This document shows positions 4,383 to 35,605 of a DNA stretch of 35,605 bases, piece by piece. The notes below the pieces were generated by a model, which ran no database searches, was not told the origin of the DNA, and worked only from the letters and a program-made list of their open reading frames with translations. Source of the stretch: Kineosporiaceae bacterium (GTDB lineage Bacteria; Actinomycetota; Actinomycetes; Actinomycetales; Kineosporiaceae); the NCBI GenBank assembly GCA_016794595.1, contig JAEUJN010000074.1, positions 1 through 35,605 of the forward strand. The letters are read 5' to 3'. The translations under genes were made by a program, and so were the position numbers. Position 1 is the stretch's first letter; the number at the start of each line of letters is the position of its first letter.

Positions 4383-4383
4383 G

Positions 4384-9838: not shown

Positions 9839-9870
9839 CCCAACAGAGGCCGTTGAACGGCCAGATTGGG
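9839..9870 (-). terminator. Hairpin just downstream of the tRNA-Ala fragment
   Basis: On the minus strand CCCAA / GGCCG pairs with CGGCC / TTGGG around a TTCAA loop, with small internal bulges; the inner arms GGCCGTT and AACGGCC are perfectly complementary. It starts 12 bases after the 3' end of the tRNA fragment. That is where a tRNA terminator would lie, suggesting the original 3' flank of the tRNA gene is preserved. There is no clear U-tract, so termination is inferred from position and stability. Confidence 0.5.
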
Positions 9871-9882
9871 TCCTGCACTGGG

Positions 9883-9924
9883 TGGAGCTGAGGGGATTTG
9901 AACCCCTGGCCCCCTCGATGCGAA
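9883..9924 (-). repeat. 3' half of a tRNA-Ala(CGC) gene, probable integrase attachment site
   Basis: Read on the minus strand, this 42-base segment can be laid onto tRNA positions 32-73: anticodon loop TTCGCAT with anticodon CGC, anticodon-stem 3' strand CGAGG, variable loop GGGCC, T-stem AGGGG, T-loop TTCAAAT, T-stem CCCCT, acceptor 3' strand CAGCTCC and discriminator A. U70 would give the alanine-specific G3:U70 pair. The upstream bases that should form the 5' anticodon strand (CCTCG) do not pair, and no D-arm or 5' acceptor exists, so this is a half gene. CCA is not encoded. It lies 185 bp from the start of a tyrosine integrase, the usual place for an att site made by integration into a tRNA 3' half. 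The other junction, with an intact tRNA, must be outside the window. Confidence 0.75.
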
Positions 9925-10021
9925 ACGCGCAGATCGAGCCAACAGCGGGGTACCCTCGAAGTCAAACACGCAGGTCAGAGCCACTTTGTGGACTCTGGTG
10001 GAGCCTCGTGGAGTGCCGTGT

Positions 10022-10050
10022 CGGGACCGTTCACGGGACGGATCCGGGAC
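10022..10050 (+). repeat. Three short direct repeats before the integrase
   Basis: CGGGAC occurs at 10022, 10034 and 10045, the last two within an 11-bp tandem (CGGGACGGATC / CGGGACGGATG). They lie between the tRNA fragment and the integrase start, where integrase arm-type or excisionase sites often sit, so they may be protein-binding sites. Chance is not excluded for such short repeats in GC-rich DNA. Confidence 0.35.
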
Positions 10051-10109
10051 GGATGATCATGGCGGGTAGGGCGTGCCGAGGCGGCTCCGCATCGAGGAGG
10101 CGCTCCGTC

Positions 10110-13441: not shown

Positions 13442-13448
13442 CGTACTC

Positions 13449-19434: not shown

Positions 19435-19462
19435 GCCAACCCTCCCTCGTCAACCCCTGCCT

Positions 19463-19506
19463 TGTCCGACCGGTCCCGCAGTGGACCGTCCGAGCAACGT
19501 CGGACA
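19463..19506. promoter_or_regulatory. Inverted pair of TGTCCGAC / GTCGGACA sites near jetA start
   Basis: TGTCCGAC at 19463-19470 and its exact complement GTCGGACA at 19499-19506 form an 8-bp inverted repeat 29-72 bp before the jetA GTG. An additional GTCCGA at 19488-19493 makes a tighter palindrome (GTCCGA-N6-TCGGAC, 19488-19505). Placement close to the start suggests a repressor or regulator site for the Wadjet operon. This is inference from symmetry and position. Confidence 0.45.
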
Positions 19507-19751
19507 GGCGTCCGCCCGCGGCAACTGGTGCACCGGGTTGAACGCCTCCCCCAAGGTCAGGCTAGAGGGCAGGTCCGACAGAGCGACGATGGACGAGAAG
19601 TCAGCAGTCTTTGCTACTGAGACCCGGGACGCGCACAGCTCGCCCGCCGGCGCGGAGGGCTCCACAAGAACCTGCGATACACCCGTGTCGGTCAACCCCG
19701 ACCGCGCCAGCAACCCCACCTGTGGAGTTCCGCGAGACTTGCGGCGCGCAG

Positions 19752-19786
19752 TTGCACGAGCGCAAGCACAAGTTGCCCGAGCGCAA
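19752..19786. repeat. Two near-identical palindromes spaced 21 bp
   Basis: TTGCACGAGCGCAA (19752-19765) and TTGCCCGAGCGCAA (19773-19786) differ by one base, and each is an imperfect palindrome (TTGCnC / GCGCAA). Their starts are 21 bp apart, two helical turns, so both face the same side of the DNA, as expected for a cooperatively bound operator. They lie about 320 bp before jetA. Confidence 0.5.
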
Positions 19787-20004
19787 TTCGTCGGACACCC
19801 AGTTGCGTAATCATGACTGTCTATGCGGTGGGCCAGTTACCTCAGCGCAGAGCAGTTGGTAGCGCCGGCGACTGGGAGGCGCCATCGACCGTGCCCGTCA
19901 GGCCGTCGACGCCCTGCGCGGCTCGGGCGAGCTCGGCCACGCCCGGAGGACTGACCTGGGTCAGCTCACCTCGCGGTGCACCCGCGATCTTGCTGGGCGG
20001 AGGG

Positions 20005-23000
20005 TCAGTGTGTGCTGCGGGCGGCCCAGAGCTCGGCGAGGATGCGCTCGAGGCTGCACCGTCCCTCCTCCTCACGGGTGACAGCACCTGTGGCGATCAG
20101 CGCAGCAAGGGTCACGTCAGGCTGGCCGCTCGTCGCGGCAATAATCTCCTCGAACGCCTCGTCGGTCTCCCTATCGAGCAGACCGGGGCCGACCTCGACG
20201 AGTGCGGTGTAGCTCGGCTCGAGTACGCCGTGCGTGACGCCGGAAGTGTCGAGAAGCTCCTGACCGAGGTCTCCGTCGAGATGGGTGCGCAGTGTCGCGA
20301 GGGCTTCCGAGGTCCCGATGTTCGCCGTGCAAAGACGGGCGACGTAGTCGATGAGCATCGGCCATCCGCCGGTCTGGGCGAGCAACCGGTCGAGGTCTGC
20401 CGGGTCGGTGAACTGGCCGTGCTGCTCGTGGCTCCAGCGCTCCAGGCCGATCCGGTCCAGGCGCCGGCACGCGACGATGCTGTCGGCGGCCATCCGGCCA
20501 CGTCCGGGCTGGAGCAGCTCGAGCCAGATGTCAGCCTGCTCGACGCCGAGGTACAGCACCGCGGAACGGGTCACGCCGTCGCCGGGGAGCAGGTTCTGCG
20601 CCTCTTCGATCTCGACGAGGATCTGGTTGCCACGCACCGTGGTGATGTCGCTGTACACGACGCGGTGCTTGCCGCCGCGGTCGCCGGTCGTGAGCGCCTC
20701 GACGAACACGCTGTGCCGGCCCGGCTTGATGAGTTCGAACCGGCCGAACGTCTTGGCAGCCTTGACGAGCAGGTCACCGATCAGGTCGGCACCAGTCGCG
20801 CGAGACCCGAGGATGATTCGGAGCTGGTTTCGCTCGCCGATGACATCGCCGAGCTGAGACTCGGTGAGCGGTGCGACGCAGGCGTTGGCGAGCTGCTGGC
20901 GAGCCTCGCCAGCGACGTGCGGTCCGGGCACGGTCGCCTGGTCGGCCCAGACGAGCTTGGCGAGGATGTCCTCGCTCGTGCCCAACATCCGCCGGACGTT
21001 CGCGCTGCGCAGGGCCCAGTTGCGGCCCTCCTGGGCGAGGACACCGAGGGTGACCATCTCGATGAGTAGCGCACGGAAGTCGTCCTCGGTCGCGGATGCG
21101 AAGCCGGCCGACCACCAGTTCTCGCACTCCTCGCGCAGCTGCACGGTGCTCATCGCGAGGATCTTCGGCTTCTCGTCCGCGGCGAGGCCGAGAACACGGG
21201 CGACGACGCCGTACCGCGGGTCGAGGTCGAGAGTGAGCCGGAGCTTGCCCGAGACCTCAGCAACGAGCTCAGGGCTCTTCCAGACGTTCTCGAACTCGTC
21301 GTCGGTGATCGTCACGGGGAGCACCGTGAACTCGTCGCGCCTCTCGTACACGTGCTTGACGAGGTGCTGGCAGACGAGCTGGAGCAGGATCGGCTGGTAG
21401 TTGCAGTAGGCGAGGACACGCCACGCGATCTCGTCGAGCGCGATGCCGAGCGCCGCCATCGGCTCGGTGACGAGACGGAACGCCTCGGCGGGCGCGAGCG
21501 GACCGATCGGAGTTGGCTTGCCCAGGTGCGCGAACGGCTGGTTCGGCAGCGACGCGAACCGGGCGACCTCGTGCAGGCCGGCGAAGACCGGCTTGAACCG
21601 CTGCTGCGTGGTATTGCGCAGGTCCCGCAGCCGGGTCGTCTGCTTGAACCCGTCGGCGGCATCGTGATCGAAGAAGTTGTCGCACTCGTCGAACAGGACG
21701 AGCAGCCACTGCTCGGGGTTGGCTTCCAGCCACGCTTCGACGGCAGAAACGACAGCGCCGTACGCGTCGCGGCGGCTCTCGCGGCGGGGGGCGCGGATGC
21801 CCTTGCCCTCCAGTGCCGATCGCAGCAAGTCCCAGATCTCCTCGGCCTGCTGAGCGGGCTGGGTGGAGACAACCACGGCGATGCCGGTGCCGTTGTTGGT
21901 GTGCCGGCGTTGCGCGGCGCGCAGCAGGGCCGACTTGCCGAGCTGACGGCCGCCGTACACGAGGCTGGTGCCACCGCGGGACAGCAGACCGGACAACTCG
22001 GTGGCACGGCCGTAGAACATCTCGCTGGGGACGTTGCCCTCGGCCTGCGGCACGTAAGGGTTCGTGGTCGCGAAAGGCAGCAGGATCTGCATCGTGGTCG
22101 TGATCGACGCGTCCAGCTGGCTGGCCAGGAACGCGAGGGCGGCGTCGTCAAGGACGACGACGGGCTTGCCCGGCAAGCTCGCGGTCGCGTCGGCGAGCTT
22201 GCGTCGCGCGTCGGCGGACATCGTGCCGAACAGGCAGACGAAGACGGGCGCCTGGGTGTCGTCCTGCTTGACCCAGTTGAGGATCGTCTGTGGGGTCTGC
22301 GGGCCCCAGACGAGCAGCAGACGCAGACGTCCTTCCAGAAGGCTGCCAAACGCAGGAACGATCGCGTTCCCCGTCACGGTCACACCGGAAAGATCGACGA
22401 AGCGGCGGTCGCCGCGCACGTCACGGATTGCCGGCGGCGTCTGCGCCTCACGCTGCGCCTCGATACCGGCCAGGCGCAGCGCCCCGGCCAGATGCGTGAG
22501 CCCGACCTGGTAGCGCTGCTGGCTGACTGTCGCGGTGTGCCAGCTGTCGAGTGCATCCGCGGCGGCAGCGCGCCTCTCATCAGGGAGTCCGCTGTAGTCG
22601 CATCCGGCGGCGCGGTCCCCCGTGCGGACGGCCGTGATCACCTCCCGGCTGAGTCCATCCGGGAGGGAGGTGGGGCCGCCGGGGAAGAACTGGGTGAGCA
22701 GTTCGAGAGTGACAGGTGCGGGAAGGTCGAGCCCGGCCTCGACCGCCGCGAGGATCTCGTCCGCGCCGGCGAGGTCGCCGGCGTTGATGCGGTCCTGGAC
22801 TCGACGCTCCTCGTCGACGCTGACCCGACCGTCTTCGACGAGGCTCTGGAGCTTGGCGGCCAGCTCGGCGGCCGCCTCGGTCGCGAGGACCGGTAGCTCG
22901 AGCTCGATACGGGTGAGCTCGGCGGCGACAACGTTGAGGTCCTCGCGGGTGCTCGGGTCGGCCGCTTCGAGCGCGGCCGTGAGTCGGATCTGGTCGTCGT

Positions 23001-25896
23001 CGTTGAGGGCGCCGAGGCGGGTGGCTTGACTGATCCGGTCGGCGAGGCGTTTGGCGCGGTCATCGATTCCGGCACGGGCCGTGCCCAACAGCTCGTCGAG
23101 GCGCTGCGTCTGCTGCTGCAGTACCGCGGGGTTGCCGGTGGTGGCGACGGCGATCGCGTGTCGGGCGGTGCCGTAGTCGCCGGAGCCGATGCGGGCAGCG
23201 ATGACGTCGTCCCAGGTGCCGCCGAGCGCAGCGGCAAGAGCCTCGACGGTGAGGTTGTCCAGGTCGAGCGGCTGCAGGCGCGTGTTCAGTGCGATCTGCG
23301 GTGCGCGGAGAAGAGCGCGGCCGAGGACCTCGTGGACGCTGCAGCCCTCGCAGCTGCCGTTGGGCGCGCGGCCGGCGAGAAGGTGCTCGGCCAGGTCGAC
23401 GGCACCCTTGATGAGGACGACACCACTGTGGTGGTCGCCCCCGTCGGCGGTGAGCGCGGCGAGCTCGTCGGCGATCGACGCGGCCGACTCGGCGGCTGCC
23501 GTCTTGACGGCGACTAGGTCGGCCGGGAGGTGCCGGTCGCCGCTGTTCGCCTGCAGAGCGCGGGCGATGCGGACCCATGCGCGGACGGGGACGAGCGCGT
23601 CCTCGATCCAGTCGAGGACCTTGGCGCGGGCCTTGCCCTGGAGCGGACGGGCTGAGCTGCCGTTACCACGGATCTTCCGGTCGAGGTCGTCGACGAGACG
23701 CCGCACCCCGTTGGCAGCGTCGAGACTGGCAAGCGTTGCGTCGACGTCGTTGAGCTGGCGGCGGTCGTCGGCGACGACGGTGGTGAGCATCGCGCCGAGG
23801 GTGCCATGGGACGCGAACAGCTCGGTGCCCATGACGGTGGCCCGGGCGAGCAGTGCGGTGCGGGAGCGGTTCAGCTCGGCCTGCGCGTCGGCCTGGACCT
23901 GCCGCAGCTCGGAGGTGATGCTGCTGCTGTCGCGCAGAGCCCTGAGCTGGCCGCCGGCGAGAGCGCCTCGCTGGGCCGCGGTCGCGATCGTGTTGACCAG
24001 GGTCGACAGACCGATCTGGTCGGCCACGTGGACGGCGAGCAGCTCGAGGACGACTCCCGCGTCGGGGTTGCCCGTGACGAGGGTCGTGCGGATGGCGGCT
24101 GCAAGGGCGGCTAGGGCGGCGAGGCGGTCACGCCCGAGCTCGGCCGAGTCCAGGGCCTCTATGACTTCGACGGCGGCGCTTGCGACCTCGCCGGTGTCGC
24201 CGCGCAAGGTCTCGGCGATCGTCGCCGCCTTGAGCGTATCGGCGAGCGTCGTGTCACCCCCGGCGGTCGCGAGCCAGTACCCGAGGCCAGTGTCGTGCTC
24301 GTCGACAGCAGCGCGGATCAGGTGCCGCAGTGTGTTGTCCTCGTCGAGGTCACCGTCGAGGTCCCCCTCAGGCTCGTCATCGAGGTCCTCGCCGAGGCTG
24401 GTGCTGTTGGCGATAGGCGTCTGACTGGCGGAGTCCACTCGCGTGGTCGTGCCGGTCAGCTGCTCAGCCGGCGCCAGCTCGGACGGCACGTCGAAGACCG
24501 CGATGGCCGGCTCCTCGACGACCGCGATCACCGCGTCGATGACCGCGGGCTCCTCGAGCGGTGCAGGCGCAGGCGCGACGAGCGGGGCAGGCTCCGGAAC
24601 GGTAACGGGCTCGACGGCAGGCGGCCCAGCGGTCGCGAGGGGTGCGACGGCCGCGATGCTGGCCTGGCCGAGCATCAGGCCGAGCAGCAGCGGGGCGAGC
24701 TCGGCGGGCAGGAGTGGCCGGATCTTCGTGTCGAGAGCGCTGAGCTCAGCCAGGGACGCTCTGGTCGCCTGGGCGTCCGCGAGTCGGAGCAGACCCGTGA
24801 CGACGGAGTAGGCGATCTCGTCGCCGTCTTCCGCGGCGCCGCAGAGGTCGTTGAGCGGTCCTCGGCAACTGGCAAGCTCGTCGTTGAGGGTGATGCTGCG
24901 AAGGCGCTGCGTCTGCTGGCGGCGCGGGTCGAGGGACTCGGCCGCCTCGCGGTAGGCGGCGGCCAGGTCGCTGAGGGACGCCCCGTCTTCGGGCGCGGTG
25001 AGTCCAGCTGCCTCGGTGGTGCTGATCGTGAGCTGCTCGACGATCGTGTGCATAACCTGGACGTCGTTCATGGCGGCGGTGACGGCGGCGGTGTCGGGCA
25101 GGGTCTGCTGTTGCACCTGAGCGAGTGCGACCGCCAGGGCGTCGGCGGCAGCGGAGTAGGCGGCGGCTGCCATCGCGTGCGCGTCCGTGAAGTCGTCGCT
25201 GCCCTGGTCGTCGGATGACGTCATCTCGACGGGCGCGTGGCCGGCGGTCGCGTCAGCGGGGGTGACGGTGTCCCACGGCATCGCATCGAGGATGCGCGCG
25301 ATCTCCGCGCCGACGGCGGCTTGCCCGTGAGCCGGGTCCGTGCCCGGGAGGGGCCCTGTCCGCAGCCACGCGGCGAGGACGGCACCGGGGGCGATGTCGC
25401 GCAGGACGGCGACGAGACCCGCGGCGAGCAATCCGTCGGCGACGCCGCTGCTCGTGCGGAGCGTGTGAAGGCAGTCGGCGGCGAGGGTGAGGACGGTGCT
25501 TGCGTCAGTGTCGGAGTGCGCGAACTCGTTGACGGGGCCAGCGAGCACGTCGTACATCACGAAGCAGAGGGCGGAGGTGAGCTGCTCGTCCTTCCAGCGG
25601 CTCATCCGGGCGAGCGCGGACGCTCCGATGGTCTCCTCCATGCTGGCCGGCGGGCGGCGGGCTGCGGGGACCTTGAGGTCGGAGAGGAACCGGCCACGCT
25701 TCTGCGAGGGCAGGCGCCAGAGAACGTCGATGAACTCAGCACCGCTGACGGTGGTGAGCGGGTCGCGGAGCGGGTCGCCGAGCTTGCTCAGTGCGCCGTG
25801 GACGAGGTCGAGCTGCTCGCGCCAGGCGTCGTTGAGCGTGTGCCCCCAGGCGCCGTCGTTCTCGGTGTGGGCGCGACGGCGACGGCTGGACGACAA
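20005..25896 (-). CDS. Giant STAND-type P-loop NTPase, third gene of the candidate system
   Basis: This 1963-residue protein has one clear NTPase module near its C-terminal third: Walker A GGRQLGKS at 1315-1322, Walker B VLFDECDN with D1403-E1404, and helical sensor-like sequence to about 1560. That is the AAA/STAND style of signal-transducing ATPases. The first 1,290 residues are mostly alanine-rich helices, broken by a proline/acidic linker (about 400-515), and contain a CxxC pair (SCEGC, about 850). A second NTPase-like tail region with TGGWP lies near 1845. No nuclease, TIR or protease motif is recognised. The start is a TTG at 25896 with AAGGAG 6 bases upstream. It follows the 816-residue gene by 107 bp on the same strand. 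A sensor or regulatory role is inferred from the architecture; the specific function is unknown. Confidence 0.85.
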   Translation of the reverse strand: MSSSRRRRAHTENDGAWGHTLNDAWREQLDLVHGALSKLGDPLRDPLTTVSGAEFIDVLWRLPSQKRGRFLSDLKVPAARRPPASMEETIGASALARMSRWKDEQLTSALCFVMYDVLAGPVNEFAHSDTDASTVLTLAADCLHTLRTSSGVADGLLAAGLVAVLRDIAPGAVLAAWLRTGPLPGTDPAHGQAAVGAEIARILDAMPWDTVTPADATAGHAPVEMTSSDDQGSDDFTDAHAMAAAAYSAAADALAVALAQVQQQTLPDTAAVTAAMNDVQVMHTIVEQLTISTTEAAGLTAPEDGASLSDLAAAYREAAESLDPRRQQTQRLRSITLNDELASCRGPLNDLCGAAEDGDEIAYSVVTGLLRLADAQATRASLAELSALDTKIRPLLPAELAPLLLGLMLGQASIAAVAPLATAGPPAVEPVTVPEPAPLVAPAPAPLEEPAVIDAVIAVVEEPAIAVFDVPSELAPAEQLTGTTTRVDSASQTPIANSTSLGEDLDDEPEGDLDGDLDEDNTLRHLIRAAVDEHDTGLGYWLATAGGDTTLADTLKAATIAETLRGDTGEVASAAVEVIEALDSAELGRDRLAALAALAAAIRTTLVTGNPDAGVVLELLAVHVADQIGLSTLVNTIATAAQRGALAGGQLRALRDSSSITSELRQVQADAQAELNRSRTALLARATVMGTELFASHGTLGAMLTTVVADDRRQLNDVDATLASLDAANGVRRLVDDLDRKIRGNGSSARPLQGKARAKVLDWIEDALVPVRAWVRIARALQANSGDRHLPADLVAVKTAAAESAASIADELAALTADGGDHHSGVVLIKGAVDLAEHLLAGRAPNGSCEGCSVHEVLGRALLRAPQIALNTRLQPLDLDNLTVEALAAALGGTWDDVIAARIGSGDYGTARHAIAVATTGNPAVLQQQTQRLDELLGTARAGIDDRAKRLADRISQATRLGALNDDDQIRLTAALEAADPSTREDLNVVAAELTRIELELPVLATEAAAELAAKLQSLVEDGRVSVDEERRVQDRINAGDLAGADEILAAVEAGLDLPAPVTLELLTQFFPGGPTSLPDGLSREVITAVRTGDRAAGCDYSGLPDERRAAAADALDSWHTATVSQQRYQVGLTHLAGALRLAGIEAQREAQTPPAIRDVRGDRRFVDLSGVTVTGNAIVPAFGSLLEGRLRLLLVWGPQTPQTILNWVKQDDTQAPVFVCLFGTMSADARRKLADATASLPGKPVVVLDDAALAFLASQLDASITTTMQILLPFATTNPYVPQAEGNVPSEMFYGRATELSGLLSRGGTSLVYGGRQLGKSALLRAAQRRHTNNGTGIAVVVSTQPAQQAEEIWDLLRSALEGKGIRAPRRESRRDAYGAVVSAVEAWLEANPEQWLLVLFDECDNFFDHDAADGFKQTTRLRDLRNTTQQRFKPVFAGLHEVARFASLPNQPFAHLGKPTPIGPLAPAEAFRLVTEPMAALGIALDEIAWRVLAYCNYQPILLQLVCQHLVKHVYERRDEFTVLPVTITDDEFENVWKSPELVAEVSGKLRLTLDLDPRYGVVARVLGLAADEKPKILAMSTVQLREECENWWSAGFASATEDDFRALLIEMVTLGVLAQEGRNWALRSANVRRMLGTSEDILAKLVWADQATVPGPHVAGEARQQLANACVAPLTESQLGDVIGERNQLRIILGSRATGADLIGDLLVKAAKTFGRFELIKPGRHSVFVEALTTGDRGGKHRVVYSDITTVRGNQILVEIEEAQNLLPGDGVTRSAVLYLGVEQADIWLELLQPGRGRMAADSIVACRRLDRIGLERWSHEQHGQFTDPADLDRLLAQTGGWPMLIDYVARLCTANIGTSEALATLRTHLDGDLGQELLDTSGVTHGVLEPSYTALVEVGPGLLDRETDEAFEEIIAATSGQPDVTLAALIATGAVTREEEGRCSLERILAELWAARSTH

Positions 25897-26003
25897 GGGC
25901 GCTCCTTCGAGACTGGACGGGCTCTGTGCCCCAGTGTGCCGGTCACGTCGGACATCCTGAGGCTTCCGGCACGCCGTTGTCCGGTTCGTCGGGGCAGGTG
26001 CAG

Positions 26004-28454
26004 TCAGCCACGGATGGCACCGGAGCGCCAGCCTGGGTCGCGGCCGCGCTCGTGCGCCTCAACCCACGTCGTCCCCGGCCGCAGCACGCGCGGAAGGTGC
26101 GTCGGTCCGAGGCTGGCCCAGACCTGCGGCCACGCGGCGATCTTCTCGGGGCTGGCTGTCCAGCCCGGCGGCAGCTCGCGGATTGTGATCGGGACCTTGT
26201 GAGCGCGCCGCACGATGGAGCCGAAAACGTGCGGGAGGCGGTGCATTGGCGGGCTGCCTCCGGGCGGCCACCACAGGTACGTCGGGGGTCCTTCGATGAA
26301 CCCGGTGGCGACCGAGACGAGCTTCCTCTCACCGGGGATGCGCAGGAGCCGGCCACGAGCGGCGTGCGCATCGAGCATCCGGTGCGCCCGCCCGACGGCG
26401 TCCTTGGGAACGGCCAGTCCGGCGAACGCTGTCGCGACGAGCACCGGGGCGGTGAAGCTGCGGACGCCGCCTTCGCCGGGCTCGATGGTGCGCTCAGCGG
26501 TTCGGAGCAGCTGGGCGAGGAACGCCCGGTTGGCCGGGTCGGCAAGGTCTCGCTCTGCGTGCTCAAGGTGCGAGGTCGGGCCACCCATGCCGCAGTTGTC
26601 CTCGGCTGGTGCATTCGCGTCCCCGGTGCCTACGTCACCGGGAGCGTCGCCGTCGAGGGACACCCCGGTCGGAGTTGCCTCAGCGTGCTCGCCAGCCGCA
26701 GCTGCCTGGGTGGCGTCATCGGCTGGCGGCAGGCCCAGGTACGCGGCCAGAATCGTCAGGTCGGTCGCGTACTTGATCTCCTGCCCAGCGAACAGGACCG
26801 TTTCCCGGAGCTGCTCGCTGCTGACGTCGAGGATGCGGCCGCCGACCGTCCACGTCGCGTTGAGCAGCAGGCCCGGATAGAACGCGAGGGGCCAGGTGAT
26901 CCCGCGGAGCTGGCACGGGCTGGTGTGGGCGGTGACAGGCTCGTGGAACGTCTCGTCGTCATCGAGGTCATGCCCGGGGTGTCCAAGCCGGACAGCGAGC
27001 GGCGGGGGCGCCGCCGTGAGGTGTTCGTCGTGGACGGCGCTCGGGACGGATAGCGTGCCGTCGGTCAGGTGCCGAGTTCGCAGCGCGACGGTGTACGTGA
27101 GGTGGCTGGCGGTGATGTCGAGGTCGCCGAGCAGCCCGTCGCCACGCTCGCCCTCCTCCCCCTGCTCAGGCTCGGGGAGCGGCGGAGCGCCACCGCGGTC
27201 CTCCGGTTCTGCTGTGTCCTCCCCCGCCGTGACTTCGCCGGTGCCCGCAGGTGGCGCGGCCGGTTCGGCGGCCGAGGGCTCGACCTGCGGTTCGATGGCA
27301 GGAGCGACGACGACGTCGGCGGCGGTGTTCAGGCTCGCGGCGTACCCGAGACTGAGCGGGATCCGCGGGTCGCAGTCGTCACCGGGGTCGTCCTGGCCGG
27401 GACCGACAGCACGCCACACGCCAGCACCACGGCCGGGGTCGTCGAGGCGGAGCCGGGTGACGGTGCTGTCGCTGCCGCCGGTGAGAGCCCGGTCGGTCAG
27501 GGCGGCGTTGAGCTGGGTGAGGGCGGCGATGTACCGAGTGCGCTGGATCTGACGGTCGGCGCCGAGCGCACGCAGCGCCACACCGGCGGCGGTGTACCGC
27601 AGCCCGCGCCGCCGAACACGCACGGACGTACGGACGATGTCGTCGACGTCCTCGTTCTCCAGGGTTGGGTGTGCACCGGTAGGCACGAGGTGCTCACCGA
27701 CGACCGCGAGAGCCGGCTCGTTGGCGGCGAGAGCGAGCAGCGCGTGCAGGGACGCGGCGACCGCACGGGCGGTCAGGTCCGGGTCGGTGCTCTCGAGCGC
27801 GAGCGGGACGGGCCCGCCGCCGAGACGAGCTGGGTCGGCGGCGAGCCACTGGGCGTAGGCGCGAATCGGGTCGCCGGCAACCTCCTCGGCGAGCTCGGGG
27901 TCGTGCGGCGCGTTCGCGGCGACGAGGTGGCCGTGGGCGTCGAGGACCCCGCGACGCCCGAGACGGTCCAGGGCGCGCTGCGAGTCGGGGTCGACGGGGC
28001 CGAAGACGCCGGAGTCGAGCACGGCACGCAGACGAATGTTCTCGTCGTAGGGAGCCCCGCTGCGCGGCCCGGCGAGGTCCCCGTCGTCATCGCCAACAAG
28101 GTCGTCCGCTTCGACGTGCACGACCTCGACCCAGACGGGCGTCTCGGTCCAGAGCTTCGCGATCGTGCCGGTCGGCGTGCGTTCAAGCCGCTGCTGGTCG
28201 AGGGTGACGAGCTCGTCGACGTTCAGGAACGTCTCGGTGTACGAGCGGCGGGCCAGGTCCCAGCCGTAGTGCAGCGCGTTCCACGCCACGTTCACGTGCA
28301 TCGGGCCCCGGTCGTGCACGACCGCACTCAGGTAGTCGCGGACCTGCGCGCGCAGCTCAGGGTCGAGGTCGACGAGCGCTGCTGGGCCGTTGAGCAGCTC
28401 GGCAGGGAACAGCGGAGCATCCAGACGCGGCTGCCACAGGGCGGGTGCAGTCAC
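26004..28454 (-). CDS. Unrecognised 816-aa protein, second gene of the candidate system
   Basis: I do not recognise this family. The protein has three globular-looking blocks separated by two acidic, proline/alanine-rich linkers (about residues 385-437 and 575-621). Block one contains a winged-helix-like end (RRRGLRYTAAG, about 280-290). Block two has LRGITWPLAFYPGLLLNATW, and block three ends with a tryptophan-rich, basic tail. No catalytic motif, P-loop, membrane segment or signal peptide is visible. The GTG start at 28454 overlaps the TGA of the helicase gene (GTGA, 28451-28454), so the two are translationally coupled and probably made in fixed ratio. It may be an adaptor between the helicase fusion and the STAND NTPase, but this is inference from position alone. 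Confidence 0.8.
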   Translation of the reverse strand: MTAPALWQPRLDAPLFPAELLNGPAALVDLDPELRAQVRDYLSAVVHDRGPMHVNVAWNALHYGWDLARRSYTETFLNVDELVTLDQQRLERTPTGTIAKLWTETPVWVEVVHVEADDLVGDDDGDLAGPRSGAPYDENIRLRAVLDSGVFGPVDPDSQRALDRLGRRGVLDAHGHLVAANAPHDPELAEEVAGDPIRAYAQWLAADPARLGGGPVPLALESTDPDLTARAVAASLHALLALAANEPALAVVGEHLVPTGAHPTLENEDVDDIVRTSVRVRRRGLRYTAAGVALRALGADRQIQRTRYIAALTQLNAALTDRALTGGSDSTVTRLRLDDPGRGAGVWRAVGPGQDDPGDDCDPRIPLSLGYAASLNTAADVVVAPAIEPQVEPSAAEPAAPPAGTGEVTAGEDTAEPEDRGGAPPLPEPEQGEEGERGDGLLGDLDITASHLTYTVALRTRHLTDGTLSVPSAVHDEHLTAAPPPLAVRLGHPGHDLDDDETFHEPVTAHTSPCQLRGITWPLAFYPGLLLNATWTVGGRILDVSSEQLRETVLFAGQEIKYATDLTILAAYLGLPPADDATQAAAAGEHAEATPTGVSLDGDAPGDVGTGDANAPAEDNCGMGGPTSHLEHAERDLADPANRAFLAQLLRTAERTIEPGEGGVRSFTAPVLVATAFAGLAVPKDAVGRAHRMLDAHAARGRLLRIPGERKLVSVATGFIEGPPTYLWWPPGGSPPMHRLPHVFGSIVRRAHKVPITIRELPPGWTASPEKIAAWPQVWASLGPTHLPRVLRPGTTWVEAHERGRDPGWRSGAIRG

Positions 28455-31400
28455 GGGGTCGCCGCTCCCGCGTTGGCCGCGGCGGCAGCGGCGCGCGCTG
28501 CTGCCCGAGCTGCCTTGGCCGCTTCGACGTCAAGGTGCCGTTGCAGGCGGAAGACGCCGGTGCCGTCGTCGACGACGACCCCGCGGGCAGTAAGCCGGTC
28601 GAGACTGGCGGTGACGTCGTCGACCTTCAGGGCCGGGTCCGCGCCACGCAGGCGGTGGTACAGCAGCTGCGGCCACAGAGGGCGGCGCGTGCCAGACTTG
28701 AGGCTGAAGTAGGAGTCGCCGCCCTTGAGGACGAGCGCCATCATCCCGGCGCTCAGGCCACCCTTGAGGTCCCAGAGCAGGGTACGGACCTGCTCGTCGA
28801 GACGGGCGAGCCGATGCGGCGCGTCCCGCGCGATCCGCGGTCGAGGGCGCGGCGTGAGGACCGCATCGAGGAGGGCGGGGCGACGTTCCTTCCCACCGCC
28901 CAGGACACCCCAGCACGCCGAGCAGCGGCACACCGGTCCGGCCGCGCAGATGCCCGGGTCGGTCGTCGCCAGGTAGGAGGCGAACCCGGCGTTGAGGCAG
29001 CCCGTGGAGGCGAGGAAGCCGCGGAGGGCGGCGAGCTCGTCACGGGCGCGGCTGCGGTGAGCGCTGACCCGGCGGGTGTACCCAGCCGGCAGCACGGCCG
29101 CGGTCCCGGCGGGCACGGCGAGGCACGTGTGGGTGCGGCCACGGCACGGGGCCTGGCTGACGTCGAGCCAGCCGCGGTCGTGCATCGCGGCGAGCAGGTT
29201 CCACGTCGCGCCGGGGTCGTCCGCGAGCGCGGCCCAGTCAGGGTTGCTGCTCAGGGTCGCGTGCGCGTCGCCGATCGGGATGACGCCGCGGGGCTGACCG
29301 GCGGCGACGGCCAGAGCCGCGGCGACGAGCTGGGCGCTGTCGGGGTCGTCCGGGGTGCGTTCGCCAGTCAGGACAGCGACACGGATCGGATGGTCGCCGC
29401 GATCGTCGAGCACACCGTCGGCGGAGAGGGCGGCGACGGCACGCATCACGCCGGTCCGGTACGACTCGGCCGTCCCGGCACGACGTGCCTGAGTGGCGGA
29501 GACGGCACCGGTGTTGACGTCGTCGACGAGGCAGTCGGTAGCGAGCCGGTCGACGTCGAGGCCGAACGTGCCCCCACTCGGACCGGTGACGCTCACGGCG
29601 GTGCGCATCAGCCGGGTCCCGATGCGGTGCATCGTCGCGATGGACAGGCCGAGGTCGGCGAAGAACGCGACCGTCCGCAAGCTCCTGCCCGTGGCGAGGG
29701 TGATACCCGTCGCCGGCTCGCCGTCACGCCCGGCGCGGCCCAGCTGCTGGTAGAGCGCGGCAAGGTCGGTCGGCGGTGAGACGGCCGTGACGCACCGGAT
29801 GTCGGCGCGGTTCACGCCGAGACCGAACGCGCTCGTCGCAACGACGATCATGGGCGCGTACCCGTCCTCTTCCTGCGCTGGTGCTTCACGGAAGGTGAAC
29901 GCGACGCTCTGCTTCTCCGCCTCGCTCAGGCGGGAGTGGAACCGGAGGACGCGAGCGCTGCCGGTGTCACCGACGTACGCGCGAAGCGCGGCGGCGAGCG
30001 CGTCGACCTCACGGATGGTGAGGCAGTAGAGGATCGTGTGACCGTCGAGGTTGTCGACGATCCGCTCGACGAGACCGGCGAGGGCGATAGGGCCGCCGGC
30101 GCCGACGGCGAAAGTCCGCTTGTACAGGGCAAGGGTCGTGCGTAGCGGGTTCGCGGCGGCGTACGCGAACGTGTCCGGGTCGGTGTGGGACCGACCGGGA
30201 GGTACGCCGCTGCCGTCATCGCCGGCGGGCAGCGGCACGAGGCCGAACAGCCCGGCGCGCAGCCCGTCGAGGACGGACCGGGTCGCGGTCGCGGTGACGG
30301 CGGTGAGCGGCAGGCCGTAGTTAGTGCGCAGCCGCCGCAGGTACTGCTCGAGGCGTCGGAAGCTGGGGCGGAAGTCGTCGCCCCACTGCACGAACGTGTG
30401 GGCTTCGTCGACGGCGATGCGGGTGACGATGCCAGCCTTGACGGCCTGCTCGACGACTTCCTGCATCCGGCGCTGACAGAGGCGTTCGGGTGAGAGGTAC
30501 ACAAGCTTGATGCCGTGGTCGGCAGCGCCAGTGAGTTGGTCGGCGACCTCGGTCTTGCCGAGGCGGCTGACGGACTCGACCATCGGTGCGACGAGAGCGC
30601 GGACTGCCCCGCCGATGGTGCGGTTCAGCTCGAGGGCCTGGTCGGTCATCAGGGCGACGAGCGGGCTGATCACGAGCGTGACGCCCGGGGTGGCTAAGGC
30701 GGGGAGCTGGAACGTGTAGCTCTTGCCGAAGCCGGTCGGGAGTACGGCGAGGACGTCGTGGCCGCGGGCCGCAGCGTCGATGACTTTCTTCTGCTGGTCC
30801 TTGAGGACGAGCGGGGTGTCGCTCAGGTTGAGCAGGCCCCCGATCTCGGCGCTGCGGTTCACGATCGTCTCGGCGAGCGTGTCCAAGCTCGGATCGCTCG
30901 CGCGCAGTCCGGTCATCTCGGCCGGGGTGAGGGCCAGACGCCGGATCTTGCGGGTCTGGGGCAGGACGGTGTGCTCGTCGAGCGCATCGGGGGTCGTCAG
31001 CTGGGCCGCGCGGGCCGGGTACAAAGCGCCTTGGATGGCGAGGAAGTCCCAGATGCGCTGCCAGCCGTCGGCCATCGTGACGATGTTTCCGCCGCACGGC
31101 TCACCTGTGGTCGGGTCGGCAACGTGCAGGCCCGGTTCGAGGCTCTCGAGGAAGATGCGCCGGTACGTGCGACGCTGGCGGGTGTCGCCGGCGAGCTTGC
31201 GGTCGCTGATGACGATGACGCCGGTGTGGTCGTCGGACCGGACGAGGCGCCCGACGGCTTGGCGCAGGTCGACGGCGGCGAGCGGCAGGTAGTACGTCTC
31301 GGTCGCGATCAGGTCGGGGTCGTCAGCTCCTGCTTCAGCGGCGGCTGCGGCGATCGCGGCACGGCGAGCGGCGACGACGGGATCGTCGGCCGACGCGAAC

Positions 31401-34400
31401 GGGAGCTTGTTGATCCAAACGAGCTTGAGGCGCGCAGCGGGCTGGATGTCGACACCTGCCCAGAGGCCCTTGGTGCCGATAGTGATGCCACCGCGGGCGC
31501 TGAGGTACTCGGCAGCCCGGCGGTTCCCGAGCAGCCCAGCGGCGTGCACGGGCACCGCGGTGCGGCCGGTGGCGGCGGCATCGGCGACGAGGCTCTGGAC
31601 GAGCTGTTCGGCTATCGCTGCGGCGCTGTTGCGGGCGGTCGTCAGGACAAGCGCGCCGCCGGCGAGGGCGACCTGACCTGTGGCGGGGTCGATGGCGCCG
31701 GCCGGGTCGGGAACGGTGATCTCGCGGGCGAAGCCCGTGAGCTGGTGCGCGGTAGTCGCAACCGCGGCCTTGCTGTGCTCGGACCAGGACGGATAGTCGC
31801 TGAACGCGACGAGCCGGGCCTGACGGGCCAGGTCGAACGGTGTCGTGAGCGTGGCGGTCTTGAGGTCGTGCAGGCCGAGGCGGCGCTTGAGGTACTCCCA
31901 GCCTCCGGCGACGGTCAGGGTCGCGGAGGTGAGGAACGTGCGGGCGAAGACGCTGCGGAACCGCAGCCAGTCGTGGTCGATCTGCAGCTCGACCGGCGAT
32001 GACTGCACCGTGGCGGCGTACTCGCGCCAGCTCTCAGCCGGTGCATCGGCGCTCTCCTCGACGACGTACACGACCCGGTTGCCGAGCGCGATCAGCTGCG
32101 ACGCGATCTGCTGCGCCGGATCCGGCTCCGCGTCGTCCCCCACGTCGCCGTCCATCACGTCAGCCGCAACCCCGTCGACGTACAGCGTGTCGTCGCCGTT
32201 CTCGTCGGGGTCCTCGGCGGTGACATCACCAGCCTCGGTGTCCTCGGCGTCGAGCGCAACCGGGTCGGCGGCAGGGTCTGCGTCGTCGGCACCAGCCTGC
32301 TGGCCGCTGTCGGTCACGGCCACGGCGGCTGCGGGAGCGGGTGTGGCGGCAGTGACGCGGCCGCCGGTGGCGGCGGCGGGGGTGGTGTCTCCGAGGAGGC
32401 GCTTGGCGTGTTCGATGATCGTGCGTGCGGCCTCTTCGAGAGCTCTCAGGCGCATCGCGAGCATCTTCGTGCGTTCCTGCGCGTACCAGTCGAGCGCACG
32501 ACCGCCTGAGCTGCCGAGGTACGCCCAGAGGGCGGCGCTGAGCTCTCCGACGACGATTGCCGTCTGCCCGACGAGGTGAGCGACGGCCCGGGCGCGGTCC
32601 TCGCCGTGGTCGGCGCCGAACGGGGACGCGAGCGTCGCGACGCGACCGGGTCCGCTGCTGCCGAGCGGGCTGCTGGAGCGGACGTCGAGCAGGGTGCTGA
32701 TCGCCTTGGGGAGCTGCTCGGCGCTGCAGTGCATCCGGAGCGCGTCGACGCATTCGACGACACGGGCGTGCTCCGCTCCGGCACCCGGATGTGCCGCGAG
32801 CCAGCTGCTCGCGGTTTGTAGGCAGCCTTCGAGCTCGGCGAGGTCGACAGTGGGGGTGAGCGCGTCAGTGGCGGCGCCTTCGAGGGTGTGGGCCTCGTCG
32901 ATGAGCAGCAGCGTGTCCGGGCCTGTCGTCCCGAAGTCGTCCAGGTGGGACAGCAGCAGGGCGTGGTTGGCCAGGACGAGGCGGTGCCCGCCGAGGGCGT
33001 CGACGACGGTGTCGGTCAGCTCGGCGAGGCCGGGGGCGGTGGAGTACTCGCCCTGGCTCTGGCTCACCGTGCTCAGGTGCGACCCGAAGCGGTCAGGGAA
33101 GTACTCGCCGAGGAACACGGGCAGGTCGGCGCTGTCGACGCTGCGGGCCGACCACTGCTCCAGGGCCGTCGTCGCGTGATGGAGACGAAGGACGATGGTC
33201 GCGAGGAGTTCGCCGTATTCGGGGTGGTCGGCGTACCCGATCCGAGCGCCACGCCGCCGGCGCCGCCGGGTGTCGTCCGTTGCCGCCTGGCTCGTGTCGG
33301 CGAGCGCAGTGACGAGTGAGCGTAGCGAGAGGCGATTGCTAGCTCCCTTGACGACGTCGGCGAGGTCGAGCAGGCCGGGGACGGCATCACCGAGGCGGTA
33401 CACGTCCTTGGCGAGCTGTGCCTGTAGCTGGCGCGTATGCGTAGCGATGACGACGCGGTGGGCGGGGTCAGCGGCGAGATGGTCGAGGGCGACGGCGAGA
33501 ACGGCGAGGCTCTTGCCCGTGCCCGTCGAGGCTTCGATCGCTCCATCGCTGTCGGGCAGCCAGTCGTGCAGGAGCTCGGCCATCTGCTCCTGAGCCGGGC
33601 GCGGGGCGACCGTGCCAGGGCTCACGACCTGCGCGAGCCGATGCGGGCTTGTGCGGCCGCCCTTCTTCAGGTCCGGCGGGACGGTGAGCGTGCCGGTGCC
33701 GGGCAGCACGCCGCCGCTCGGGTCGCGGCGCAGCGGCAGGTGACCGAGCGCTTCGTTGAGCGCGTTCGCGGTCTGGGTGTCGTCAAGAGCGGACGCTGTG
33801 GGGGCGAGACCGCCGGCGGCGAGCTCGCGGATGAGCCGCCACGCGATGCTGCGGTTGGTGGTCGCGTCGAGCATGCCGCGCATCTGGCCAGGGAGCGCAG
33901 CGTGCGCTGCCGCTGCTGTGCGCAGAAGTCGGGCGGTGAGCTCGGCGTCGTGCGCAGCGTCGTGCCAGCTCAGGCCGGTGCGGTCAACACCCACTTCTTC
34001 GGCGAGCTCGGCGAGACGGTGGCTGCGCTTGGGGAATGGCCAGGTCGACAGCGCCAGGTAGTAGGCGTCAACCCGCACACCACTCGGATGGGAGAGGCCG
34101 ACGCGGTCGCTGGCGGCGTCGAGGAGGGGGAAGTCAACGCCGATGCCGTTGTACGCGACGAGGACGTCCGCGTCTGCGCAGTAGTCGCGGAAGCGTTCGA
34201 GGGCATCGGTCATCGGGATGCCGTCGGCTTCGACGCGGGCACGGGCGTGGGGGCTGCGGAGCTCAACGACCCAGTCGTCACTGGGCAGCGACACGTACTG
34301 GTCGAACGAGCCGCCAGTCGCCCAGGCAGTGTCGGCGGAGAGTTTGACGGCGCCGATCTGCCAGATGCGTGCGTCCCGGTACTCAGGGGCGTTGGGGTCT

Positions 34401-34723
34401 AGACGTACGACGCTCTCGACATCGACGACAACGGCGCGCAGCGGGCGGTCCTCGACCGCGACGAGGTCGTCGGGGTCCGGAGAGGTCGTGGTGCTTGGGT
34501 CGCTGCTGGTCTGGGGCGGGAGGGTGACAGCAGCGTCGACGATGTGGAGCAGCCCGGCCGCCGCGGCGGTCGTGATCTCAGCGGTGATGATCTCGGCGGG
34601 GACGAGCGGCATCTTCCGCTTGAGACGCGTCAGCAGCGTCGGCAGGGGCAGCGGGGTGTCGCTGCCGTCAAGCTCTGCTGCGACCGCCGTGAGGATCTGG
34701 CGGGTTCGGGGGCTCACGTCCAC
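28451..34723 (-). CDS. DEDDh exonuclease / DinG-like helicase / RecQ-like helicase fusion
   Basis: The 2090-residue protein joins three enzymes. Residues about 95-270 are a DEDDh 3'-5' exonuclease with D101 and E103 (DVES), D197 (NGIGVD), and H254 with D259. Residues about 370-1200 are a DinG/XPD-type helicase: Walker A ASTGTGKS to 405, DEAH 609-612, and a late QAVGRLVR motif; it has no cysteine between Walker A and DEAH, so no iron-sulphur cluster. Residues about 1310-1720 are a RecQ-like helicase: PTGFGKS 1329-1335, DEAH 1439-1442, TATAT, and QQLGRAGRDG 1659-1668. A cysteine-rich zinc-like patch (about 1905-1935) and a winged-helix-like tail follow. Exonuclease-DinG fusions occur in Gram-positive bacteria; adding RecQ in one chain is unusual. 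The start is GTG at 34723, with only a weak ribosome binding site. It is the first gene of the operon. All core catalytic residues appear intact. Confidence 0.92.
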   Translation of the reverse strand: MDVSPRTRQILTAVAAELDGSDTPLPLPTLLTRLKRKMPLVPAEIITAEITTAAAAGLLHIVDAAVTLPPQTSSDPSTTTSPDPDDLVAVEDRPLRAVVVDVESVVRLDPNAPEYRDARIWQIGAVKLSADTAWATGGSFDQYVSLPSDDWVVELRSPHARARVEADGIPMTDALERFRDYCADADVLVAYNGIGVDFPLLDAASDRVGLSHPSGVRVDAYYLALSTWPFPKRSHRLAELAEEVGVDRTGLSWHDAAHDAELTARLLRTAAAAHAALPGQMRGMLDATTNRSIAWRLIRELAAGGLAPTASALDDTQTANALNEALGHLPLRRDPSGGVLPGTGTLTVPPDLKKGGRTSPHRLAQVVSPGTVAPRPAQEQMAELLHDWLPDSDGAIEASTGTGKSLAVLAVALDHLAADPAHRVVIATHTRQLQAQLAKDVYRLGDAVPGLLDLADVVKGASNRLSLRSLVTALADTSQAATDDTRRRRRRGARIGYADHPEYGELLATIVLRLHHATTALEQWSARSVDSADLPVFLGEYFPDRFGSHLSTVSQSQGEYSTAPGLAELTDTVVDALGGHRLVLANHALLLSHLDDFGTTGPDTLLLIDEAHTLEGAATDALTPTVDLAELEGCLQTASSWLAAHPGAGAEHARVVECVDALRMHCSAEQLPKAISTLLDVRSSSPLGSSGPGRVATLASPFGADHGEDRARAVAHLVGQTAIVVGELSAALWAYLGSSGGRALDWYAQERTKMLAMRLRALEEAARTIIEHAKRLLGDTTPAAATGGRVTAATPAPAAAVAVTDSGQQAGADDADPAADPVALDAEDTEAGDVTAEDPDENGDDTLYVDGVAADVMDGDVGDDAEPDPAQQIASQLIALGNRVVYVVEESADAPAESWREYAATVQSSPVELQIDHDWLRFRSVFARTFLTSATLTVAGGWEYLKRRLGLHDLKTATLTTPFDLARQARLVAFSDYPSWSEHSKAAVATTAHQLTGFAREITVPDPAGAIDPATGQVALAGGALVLTTARNSAAAIAEQLVQSLVADAAATGRTAVPVHAAGLLGNRRAAEYLSARGGITIGTKGLWAGVDIQPAARLKLVWINKLPFASADDPVVAARRAAIAAAAAEAGADDPDLIATETYYLPLAAVDLRQAVGRLVRSDDHTGVIVISDRKLAGDTRQRRTYRRIFLESLEPGLHVADPTTGEPCGGNIVTMADGWQRIWDFLAIQGALYPARAAQLTTPDALDEHTVLPQTRKIRRLALTPAEMTGLRASDPSLDTLAETIVNRSAEIGGLLNLSDTPLVLKDQQKKVIDAAARGHDVLAVLPTGFGKSYTFQLPALATPGVTLVISPLVALMTDQALELNRTIGGAVRALVAPMVESVSRLGKTEVADQLTGAADHGIKLVYLSPERLCQRRMQEVVEQAVKAGIVTRIAVDEAHTFVQWGDDFRPSFRRLEQYLRRLRTNYGLPLTAVTATATRSVLDGLRAGLFGLVPLPAGDDGSGVPPGRSHTDPDTFAYAAANPLRTTLALYKRTFAVGAGGPIALAGLVERIVDNLDGHTILYCLTIREVDALAAALRAYVGDTGSARVLRFHSRLSEAEKQSVAFTFREAPAQEEDGYAPMIVVATSAFGLGVNRADIRCVTAVSPPTDLAALYQQLGRAGRDGEPATGITLATGRSLRTVAFFADLGLSIATMHRIGTRLMRTAVSVTGPSGGTFGLDVDRLATDCLVDDVNTGAVSATQARRAGTAESYRTGVMRAVAALSADGVLDDRGDHPIRVAVLTGERTPDDPDSAQLVAAALAVAAGQPRGVIPIGDAHATLSSNPDWAALADDPGATWNLLAAMHDRGWLDVSQAPCRGRTHTCLAVPAGTAAVLPAGYTRRVSAHRSRARDELAALRGFLASTGCLNAGFASYLATTDPGICAAGPVCRCSACWGVLGGGKERRPALLDAVLTPRPRPRIARDAPHRLARLDEQVRTLLWDLKGGLSAGMMALVLKGGDSYFSLKSGTRRPLWPQLLYHRLRGADPALKVDDVTASLDRLTARGVVVDDGTGVFRLQRHLDVEAAKAARAAARAAAAAANAGAATP

Positions 34724-34766
34724 GTTCTCGTCGCGGTCCTCTACTCGGGTAGCCGCGGCCGCGGCA

Positions 34767-34782
34767 TGTCACATCCTGTCAC
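34767..34782. promoter_or_regulatory. Two TGTCAC direct repeats 10 bp apart before the helicase gene
   Basis: TGTCAC occurs at 34767-34772 and 34777-34782, exactly one helical turn apart and 44-59 bp upstream of the helicase GTG. On the transcribed strand this reads GTGACA-GGAT-GTGACA. Direct repeats with this spacing and position often bind a regulator, but two hexamers are weak evidence. Confidence 0.3.
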
Positions 34783-35360
34783 CGGCGACCGACACTACGA
34801 GGCCATTCGCCAGTTGAAGGACGGATGCACAGCCCACCGCGAAGACCGCCCAGTGCCAGCAGCTGATCCCCATCGCCCCGACCAACAGCCGCGCGCACGC
34901 CGTTCTCGACCTCATGCACCTGCCGCACGTGTCTCCTGGCGGAAGGACCACGCCGTCGTCTCCGGGTTGGCCACGGCAAGGAGCGGGTAGCCGCACCTGA
35001 GACGCGGCGAATGGCCCGACTGACCCGCAAGTCTGGTTGGACAGGTGGTGGGGCCAGCTGACGCCGAGCTGCTCGAGCTGGCGCACCAGCGGCAGCCGGT
35101 CGCCGAAGTGCTCGCGCCGCCGTAGGACCAGCCGAGGGTCGCCAGCCTCACGCAGGCTGGCCCTTCGTCGAGGCCCGCCGGCCCGCTCGACCGCTGGGTG
35201 CGGAAGTCTCCGCTTGACCTCGGTCGGTTTGCACCGATGCGCGTCGCGCCGCATGTCCCTGGTGCCGTCAGACGCCACGTCATCCGCGCGCTGCCTGGTT
35301 GGCCCGACGCCCGGCTGTCCGGACGCTGTCCGGACGACGCGGCCGCGCTCGTTGGGATAA

Positions 35361-35476
35361 CTGCTACCCGCAAGTCGATCGGTGGTCAGGCCGATCTCGG
35401 ATTCGTAGCTGCCGTGTGCGAGGTAGTACGTGCCCGCCTCGGTGAGGGTCGCCGTCCACGTCTTGGTATGAGTCCC
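35361..35476 (-). pseudogene. Possible truncated gene next to the insertion sequence
   Basis: On the minus strand a frame reads HTKTWTATLTEAGTYYLAHG, then SYESEIGLTTDRLAG, with the look of a real protein (a winged-helix-type end, with TLTEAGTYYLAHG like the wing/terminus of such domains). Both the upstream and downstream continuations lose this character. The presumed 5' part would lie to the right, where the transposase leader begins, so insertion may have cut the gene. No family is recognised and the boundaries are approximate. Confidence 0.3.
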
Positions 35477-35587
35477 CTGGTGTGGTGGGGTTTGGGGTGA
35501 TGGACGGCGTGGCCTGCTGAGGCGGGGTGGCCATCGGCGGGATCTTCGGTGTGAACGACCAAGCACACACTGAAGAGGAGCCCACCG

Positions 35588-35605
35588 ATGGCCTTGTCCC
35601 AGTCT
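35588..35605 (+). CDS. Start of a transposase, probably IS256 family (partial)
   Basis: An ATG at 35588 behind GAGGAG (35575-35580) opens a frame reading MALSQS before the window ends. This is how many actinobacterial IS256-family transposases begin, and the tight ribosome binding site supports a real start. Only six codons are visible, so the family assignment rests on that N-terminus alone. The left end of the element should lie within about 150 bp upstream; I could not fix a terminal inverted repeat. Confidence 0.45.

Follow-up and report, generated by a model that had tools for sequence, protein, structure and literature searches.

An exonuclease-DinG-RecQ fusion, an unrecognised protein and a giant STAND ATPase form a recurrent actinobacterial operon that looks like an undescribed defence system

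Within a contig of 35,605 bp from a Kineosporiaceae bacterium (GCA_016794595.1, JAEUJN010000074.1), taken as a whole and referred to as the window (the assembly comprises 4.95 Mb in 123 contigs), we studied three consecutive minus-strand genes that had been put forward, from the letters alone, as a candidate defence operon (the original prediction). In the list of open reading frames (ORFs) these are P0001 (28451-34723), encoding an exonuclease-DinG-RecQ fusion of 2090 amino acids (aa) whose orthologues are 39.7-55% identical, P0002 (26004-28454), encoding an 816-aa protein of what looks like a new family, and P0003 (20005-25896), encoding a predicted giant STAND ATPase of 1963 aa. Coordinates and sequence agree with the proposed arrangement: P0001 and P0002 overlap by 4 bp (GTGA), and P0003 starts at a TTG codon (25896) 107 bp past the P0002 stop, with AAGGAG ahead of it at 25907-25902. 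Third-position GC is 0.85-0.88 in all three genes, matching genuine genes of this genome, and together with the order kept in homologues this indicates that the arrangement is not due to chance. Scanning 19400-35605 revealed neither a sigma-70-type promoter nor a terminator pattern, which counts for little in a GC-rich organism.

Searching P0001 against Pfam gave RNase_T (aa 97-266, E 3.2e-10), Helicase_C_2 (1021-1184), DEAD (1309-1483) and Helicase_C (1556-1667), which bears out the proposed union of a nuclease and two helicases in one protein; NCBIfam models of the DinG type and of RecQ matched as well, every one under its cut-off. The exonuclease domain (33926-34435) contains D101, E103, D197, H254 and D259, which we take to be the DEDDh exonuclease motif, and each of the five is conserved in all 10 genes whose sequence spans this domain. 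It is followed by a DinG-type superfamily 2 (SF2) helicase at about aa 361-1201 (31121-33643; Walker A GTGKS, DEAH) and a RecQ-type SF2 helicase at about aa 1306-1690 (29654-30808; GFGKS, DEAH, QQLGRAGRD), both placed by Pfam, NCBIfam and alignment. The DinG and RecQ families are helicases of opposite polarity. Walker A and DEAH are conserved in both helicases in nearly all aligned rows, with DESH in one DinG row. In canonical DinG the Fe-S cysteines start in the stretch after the KG motif; cysteine is absent from this one stretch (window aa 452-480) in those 10 genes (15 rows).

P0003 showed only a sub-threshold AAA_22 match in Pfam. A structure model of aa 1016-1963, built from 64 sequences, reached a pLDDT of 91.1 and a pTM of 0.88. 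Residues 264-625 of this model matched the archaeal ATPases 2qen (Z 19.5, 320 aligned residues, root-mean-square deviation (rmsd) 4.1) and 2fna (Z 18.8), and further matches were the wheat NLR G10 (9h2l, Z 17.2) and CED-4 (Z 16.2). Model residues 264-639 contain the NTPase, helical and winged-helix modules in the manner of NLR, CED-4 and archaeal STAND proteins. As had been proposed, aa 1279-1640 (20977-22062; Walker A GGRQLGKS, Walker B LLVLFDECD) are thus confidently predicted to be a STAND NTPase module. Avs3 (8dgc, E 6.3e-05) was also among the Foldseek matches. In the model, the C-terminal part (aa about 1665-1963; 20005-20904) consists of an alpha/beta domain and then helices. Profile comparison linked this region weakly to a designed P-loop ATPase (E 0.0092), and the alpha/beta domain is possibly a decayed second P-loop domain. 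The C-terminal part of the giant had no match in phage records.

For P0002, left unrecognised by the original prediction, we likewise found no match in Pfam, PADLOC or NCBIfam, and its profile had no relative among PDB sequences. The family counts 17 ORFs including that of the window, two of which are pieces of one broken gene (L033), and genomes G225 and G604 contribute two further members. Invariant H, D, R and N residues are present in the family. A model from 13 sequences was weak (mean pLDDT 62.9, pTM 0.44). In it, aa about 640-732 (26259-26537) resemble a winged helix in VIA-align (Z up to 8.0; Z-alpha 1qbj Z 7.9, rmsd 2.0, 66 aligned), and aa 448-562 resemble Arabidopsis At1g16640 (1yel, Z 6.9, 94 aligned), presumably a B3-type DNA-binding domain. 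P0002 may therefore contain a winged helix as well as a B3-like barrel; both readings come solely from VIA-align at Z 6.9-8.0, and the likeness could be that of a common arrangement. We regard the protein as a probable DNA-binding adaptor or a new effector.

In this analysis P0002 was seen solely in actinobacteria. As sole query it gave no plasmid match and no confirmed relative among 50 stretches of genome_contigs, and none of 27 stretches from viral contigs encodes a relative. In 198 genomes it retrieved its own copy in the window and a weak stretch in G107 (L002; 31% over 107 aa), which contains two TGA stops and is perhaps a remnant.

Furthermore, we looked for the three genes together in other genomes. 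With an alignment of the giant core as query, 531 of 591 candidate stretches listed in genome_contigs encode relatives of the giant, and the best 80 were taken for locus analysis. Among these 80 we found the order helicase-P0002-giant in eight loci, from Lentzea, Kutzneria, Salinispora, two Streptomyces, Verrucosispora, Plantactinospora and Micromonospora. P0001 is uninterrupted, with 1972-2063 aa in one frame, in seven of the eight; the exception is the Streptomyces ipomoeae assembly, where it is distributed over contigs. A search with the DinG-RecQ segment added the full trio of G604. Including the window, the order P0001-P0002-giant thus occurs in 10 actinobacterial loci, two of which share one block. 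With the starts as called, P0001 and P0002 overlap by 4 bp in seven of the 10 (the window, L029, L030, L032, L034, L040 and G604); with the first start, the overlap is longer in L027, L031 and L039. The trio therefore recurs as an operon, which is what the co-occurrence check suggested by the original prediction was to establish.

The helicase fusion itself is rare and patchy. The DinG-RecQ segment was found in 3 of 296 genomes of the phylum (E 1e-40) and 2 of 394 of the class (E 1e-60), the window's own included in both, and beyond the window genome it led to G225, G418 and G604. This distribution does not fit a core-genome placement, the outcome named beforehand as contrary to a defence role. 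All 13 fusions whose neighbours were examined adjoin P0002, the giant or both. In G418 the giant lies directly before the helicase, with no P0002 match alongside, and in one G494 locus P0002 follows the helicase at a contig end. P0002 and the giant occur without an adjoining helicase in seven loci (L003, L004, L035-L038 and the broken L033), among which no common third gene was found; the 74% match that links L003 to L036 concerns a transposase-like ORF. Two Streptomyces plasmids carry the P0002-giant pair. For L003 and L004 the helicase search covered plasmid records only, and in G494 (L035) the helicase is present on another contig than the pair. Fusion and giant coincide in 2 of the 296 phylum genomes, with the giant in six and the fusion in three (hypergeometric probability 0.001 with and 0.034 without the window genome, assuming that both searches covered the same 296 genomes). 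All possible pairs among the three genes are found linked, mostly within the full trio. The idea of one system is thus upheld as to the conserved order, and the union of all three is not obligatory.

The giant belongs to a multi-phylum family with a changing operon partner. Four of five other giants exceeded the generic Pfam AAA_22 cut-off, and no other family matched. Among 94 labelled giants (G232 and L041, one genome, are both counted), the partner was a metallo-beta-lactamase (MBL)/beta-CASP protein in 27, a HEPN-like protein in 24 (two from one genome), helicase plus P0002 in nine, P0002 only in seven, a PLD-SNF2 protein in six, and pPIWI-RE and the helicase only in one each; beta-CASP and PLD-SNF2 identities were set on one member each and extended by HMM or BLAST. 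No partner was recognised for 19 giants, some of which are cut or frame-broken. The HEPN assignment is based on sub-threshold Pfam matches (E 0.017-0.03), a weak match to PADLOC PD-T4-5 (E 0.0084) and an R-x4-H motif present in all 24 rows. Profile comparisons showed no relationship among P0002 and the MBL and HEPN-like partners (probability <1%). P0002 lies upstream of the giant, unlike the HEPN-like and MBL partners.

In a tree of the giants (G232 dropped), all P0002 giants fall in one clade of 17 rows, including one broken giant without a recognised partner (SH-aLRT 96), all MBL giants lie within one clade of 37 rows (SH-aLRT 100), and the HEPN giants are scattered over several places. The partner labels, 'none recognised' included, require 24 changes against a mean of 55.1 after shuffling (as low in 0 of 200), and seven when the 19 unrecognised rows are left out. 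The tree is a quick one with SH-aLRT support only, and long-branch attraction may explain why it joins L006 with G418 and L008 with L108. The HEPN RNase form is perhaps the oldest and widest in the family. The pairing of related giants with other nucleases suggests that the switch is conserved and its effectors are exchangeable. The original prediction of a third defence system in the window holds as far as the recurrent, patchy operon is concerned; the trio is also one branch of a wider giant-STAND family whose nuclease partners are exchanged.

Several of these loci deserve a short description. The HEPN-like partner has about 365-500 aa, occurs in several phyla and mostly stands directly downstream of the giant (L005, L007, L041/G232, L059, L064, L073, L077, L080, L081, L083, L085-L087, L093, L095, L097, L098, L102, L105, G219 and G438); the IMG/VR contigs L107 and L108 encode a giant with a HEPN-like partner of 332 and 422 aa. 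In Nocardia exalbida (L066:6203-20708) a giant, an MBL/beta-CASP protein, a DrmE_C-domain protein and a DrmA-like helicase stand in series, and similar gene sizes were seen in L067, L068, L078 and L106. A cyanobacterial giant of about 2450 aa (L090:22-12421 and relatives) is preceded by genes for a PLD-SNF2 helicase and a WD40 protein. In a pPIWI-RE island of Azospirillum (L008, 3688-17967), two ORFs share the RNaseH domain, and the second runs on into the giant.

As to the surroundings, the window has Wadjet on one side of the trio and BREX-2 beyond it, as described before: JetA-JetD lie on the minus strand at 12071-19434 (Pfam DUF3375, DUF4194, SbcC_Walker_B and JetD_C), and PglX and PglW at 813-8640 (NCBIfam), next to a DUF6079 fragment at 2-766 that is presumably PglY. 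Because a phage-type integrase (9756-11576) is found between BREX-2 and Wadjet, the island may hold an integrated element. An ORF at 34769-35605 matches no family, has a third-position GC of 0.76 and may be noncoding.

Elsewhere, Salinispora and Verrucosispora have in common a block of about 25 kb (about 92% identity) with an integrase, a pPIWI-RE helicase, a pPIWI-RE protein and the trio; outside it, upstream pieces are 79-83% identical and the 3.3 kb after the block in Salinispora are unmatched. The Plantactinospora trio has an integrase at a distance of about 1 kb. G418 encodes an integrase (Pfam E 4.8e-23) on the helicase side of its giant, separated by 99 bp from a tRNA-Cys. By eye, an ORF close to the G604 trio resembled an integrase; in Pfam it was borderline (26.8 bits, 28.1 with neighbours, cut-off 27.1) and was not counted. 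Wadjet-type genes (DUF2397, DUF2398 and SbcC-like) adjoin the G418 giant, a JetA homologue (E 4.2e-280) lies near the P0002-giant pair of L036, and an IetS homologue (E 4.4e-90) near the helicase-P0002 locus of G494 (L137). These two were the strong, near full-length matches of a PADLOC scan in which seven of 10 flanking proteins, hand-picked from 115 and hence no measure of enrichment, matched at E 0.001; the other five matches were partial or weak, and three proteins gave none. A large protein near the P0002-giant pair of L035 (16288-19296) has a partial match of the Lamassu LmuB type (E 3.7e-22). Overall, Wadjet-like proteins occur in five of 93 giant loci (3.7-36 kb long, median 21 kb), the likeness in L054 and L077 being that of an SMC-type protein only (29-34% identity); in L062 (15754-21409) Wadjet-like genes lie about 3 kb downstream of the giant. 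An island context is thus seen for some trio-related copies and not for every one.

To place the trio among known systems, we compared it with its closest links, which are pPIWI-RE islands, ExoDinG helicases and STAND NTPases. Parts of Burroughs et al. 2013 (PMC3702460) describe three-gene pPIWI-RE islands. Like the trio, they are operons containing a DinG-type helicase, and the two are also connected by the fused reading frame in L008 and by the pPIWI-RE pair next to the Salinispora and Verrucosispora trios. However, the trio has a giant STAND protein in place of PIWI, plus RecQ and exonuclease domains, and none of the pPIWI-RE X/MID/RNaseH, Z, Y or REase domains was found in P0001-P0003 with Pfam up to E 1, whereas the same models do match L008 and L125. 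ExoDinG helicases, as sections of a review have it (PMC11981726), carry an N-terminal DEDD-type exonuclease fused to DinG. P0001 shares this order of domains but adds a RecQ half and a tail and has a giant in its operon; it stays under the NCBIfam exonuclease/DinG cut-off (TIGR01407, 162.2 versus 547.7 bits), and 'RecQ' is absent from the main text of that review.

Avs/AVAST and other STAND NTPases (NLR, CED-4) have the STAND NTPase module in common with P0003. They differ in that the module of P0003 lies within the last 700 residues and its partners are on separate genes. Avs proteins combine an N-terminal effector and a C-terminal repeat sensor in one chain; the C terminus of the P0003 model shows an alpha/beta domain and helices. 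Shango, an operon with an ATPase and a helicase, had been called the nearest system. This did not hold: the RecQ part of P0001 matches SngC (E 1.6e-15), but the DpdF and PsyrT models outscore SngC, and P0002 and P0003 match no Shango component in PADLOC. DpdF is the best PADLOC match of the RecQ half (E 2.2e-62), yet P0001 scores 161 bits against an NCBIfam DpdF cut-off of 550, and no Dpd model matches P0002 or P0003. Similarly, the csf4 model (TIGR03117) for CasDinG of type IV CRISPR scores 65.6 bits on P0001 against a cut-off of 400. PADLOC 2.0.0 (2023), Avs included, had no model matching P0002 or any of the giants examined (P0003 up to E 0.1; those of L007 and L066 up to E 0.01), and nothing in Pfam or NCBIfam exceeded its cut-off for P0002 and P0003 of the window. 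As predicted, no named system in PADLOC or NCBIfam fits all three proteins, and in the open-access (PMC) literature we found no account of the trio or of the giant family, though one may exist elsewhere. The trio looks like an undescribed system of the STAND-plus-effector kind.

We consider it reasonably probable that the three genes form one accessory operon defending against phages or plasmids, with P0003 as switch, P0002 as coupler and P0001 as effector. P0003 would be a STAND-type ATP switch, by analogy to its modelled fold, that is inactive until it or P0002 meets a signal of the invader. P0002 would most likely bind nucleic acid and couple recognition to P0001 and P0003. In P0001, the DinG and RecQ motors would open invader DNA or R-loops, and the putative 3'-5' exonuclease, judged by its catalytic residues, would degrade the exposed strand. 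The strongest argument for P0001 as effector is that other nucleases adjoin most related giants that lack P0001 and have a recognised partner. Whether the trio further belongs to an undescribed, phylum-spanning class of immune operons, in which a STAND chassis, in most cases 1900-2450 residues long, exchanges a HEPN RNase, a beta-CASP nuclease, PLD-SNF2, pPIWI-RE or the exonuclease-DinG-RecQ fusion and P0002 is a new recognition or effector protein, seems to us evenly balanced.

Several observations weigh against this division of roles and against a defence context. In G225, P0002 follows the helicase with a 4-bp overlap and no giant adjoins (a separate protein with RNase_T and BRCT domains, L142:1212-2087, is encoded after P0002, at the place expected for the giant). 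At E 1e-60 no helicase was found in G495, G496, G497 and G492, which carry P0002 and the giant (G495-G497 are draft assemblies). Because G495, G496 and G497 have the pair without P0001, the putative effector would be dispensable in some versions. For the P0002 model, Foldseek returned nothing at E ≤0.001 from PDB and BFVD. Proximity to integrases is weak evidence, since G418 and G604 have 13 and 35 integrase matches genome-wide, and Wadjet, according to a passage of PMC10482375, occurs in 42% of actinobacterial genomes; some of the defence and integrase neighbours may therefore be there by chance. In addition, BLAST with the Wadjet and BREX-2 proteins of the window and the Wadjet proteins of G418 gave no hit in the regions flanking the other trios, a test that also missed the divergent JetA of L036.

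The weakest point of a P0001 effector is the P0002-giant pair without a recognised nuclease, in which P0002 itself may be the effector. Taken further, P0002 would be an enzyme of a new type and P0001 an accessory that joined some lineages. The seven pairs without an adjoining helicase or a conserved third gene, the single clade of P0002 giants (17 rows, SH-aLRT 96) and the invariant H, D, R and N residues agree with this. We nevertheless think it rather unlikely, as no known catalytic fold or motif was recognised in P0002, its sole structural hints are DNA-binding folds, and it stands upstream of the giant, where HEPN-like and MBL partners do not. We give the same low credence to a system directed mainly at plasmids or at element exclusion, like the adjacent Wadjet, that would act on plasmid or conjugative DNA and not on phages. 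Wadjet genes adjoin the window trio and the G418 and L036 pairs, Wadjet-like proteins occur in the five giant loci, two Streptomyces plasmids carry P0002 and the giant, and P0001 is by its domains a DNA helicase-exonuclease; however, other copies lie near pPIWI-RE or Iet genes, of differing or unknown targets, and the HEPN-like partners of related giants, RNases by family, are ill-suited to destroying plasmid DNA.

Less probable again is a role in repair or replication of the carrying mobile element without any immune function. DinG, RecQ and RNase T are repair-type domains, and integrases lie near the Salinispora/Verrucosispora and Plantactinospora trios and, in G418, 99 bp from the tRNA-Cys, but in other lineages the giant is partnered by HEPN-like and beta-CASP proteins, which are typical of conflict systems, and to our knowledge STAND switches are rare in repair systems. 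That unrelated genes came together by chance in one defence island, as the partial combinations might suggest, is very improbable and is rejected because the gene order is conserved: ten loci have the same order, seven with the 4-bp overlap, and 13 of 13 fusions adjoin P0002 and/or the giant.

If an accessory defence operon built on a STAND switch is the correct explanation, one giant ATP switch would have acquired, over evolution, at least five unrelated nucleic-acid enzymes as partners. This would be a bacterial parallel to the NLR proteins, in which a common switch serves many outputs, and many proteins whose present annotation is 'AAA family ATPase' or 'hypothetical protein' would gain a function. 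P0001 and its orthologues would then represent a new DNA-unwinding and DNA-degrading machine with two helicases in each chain.

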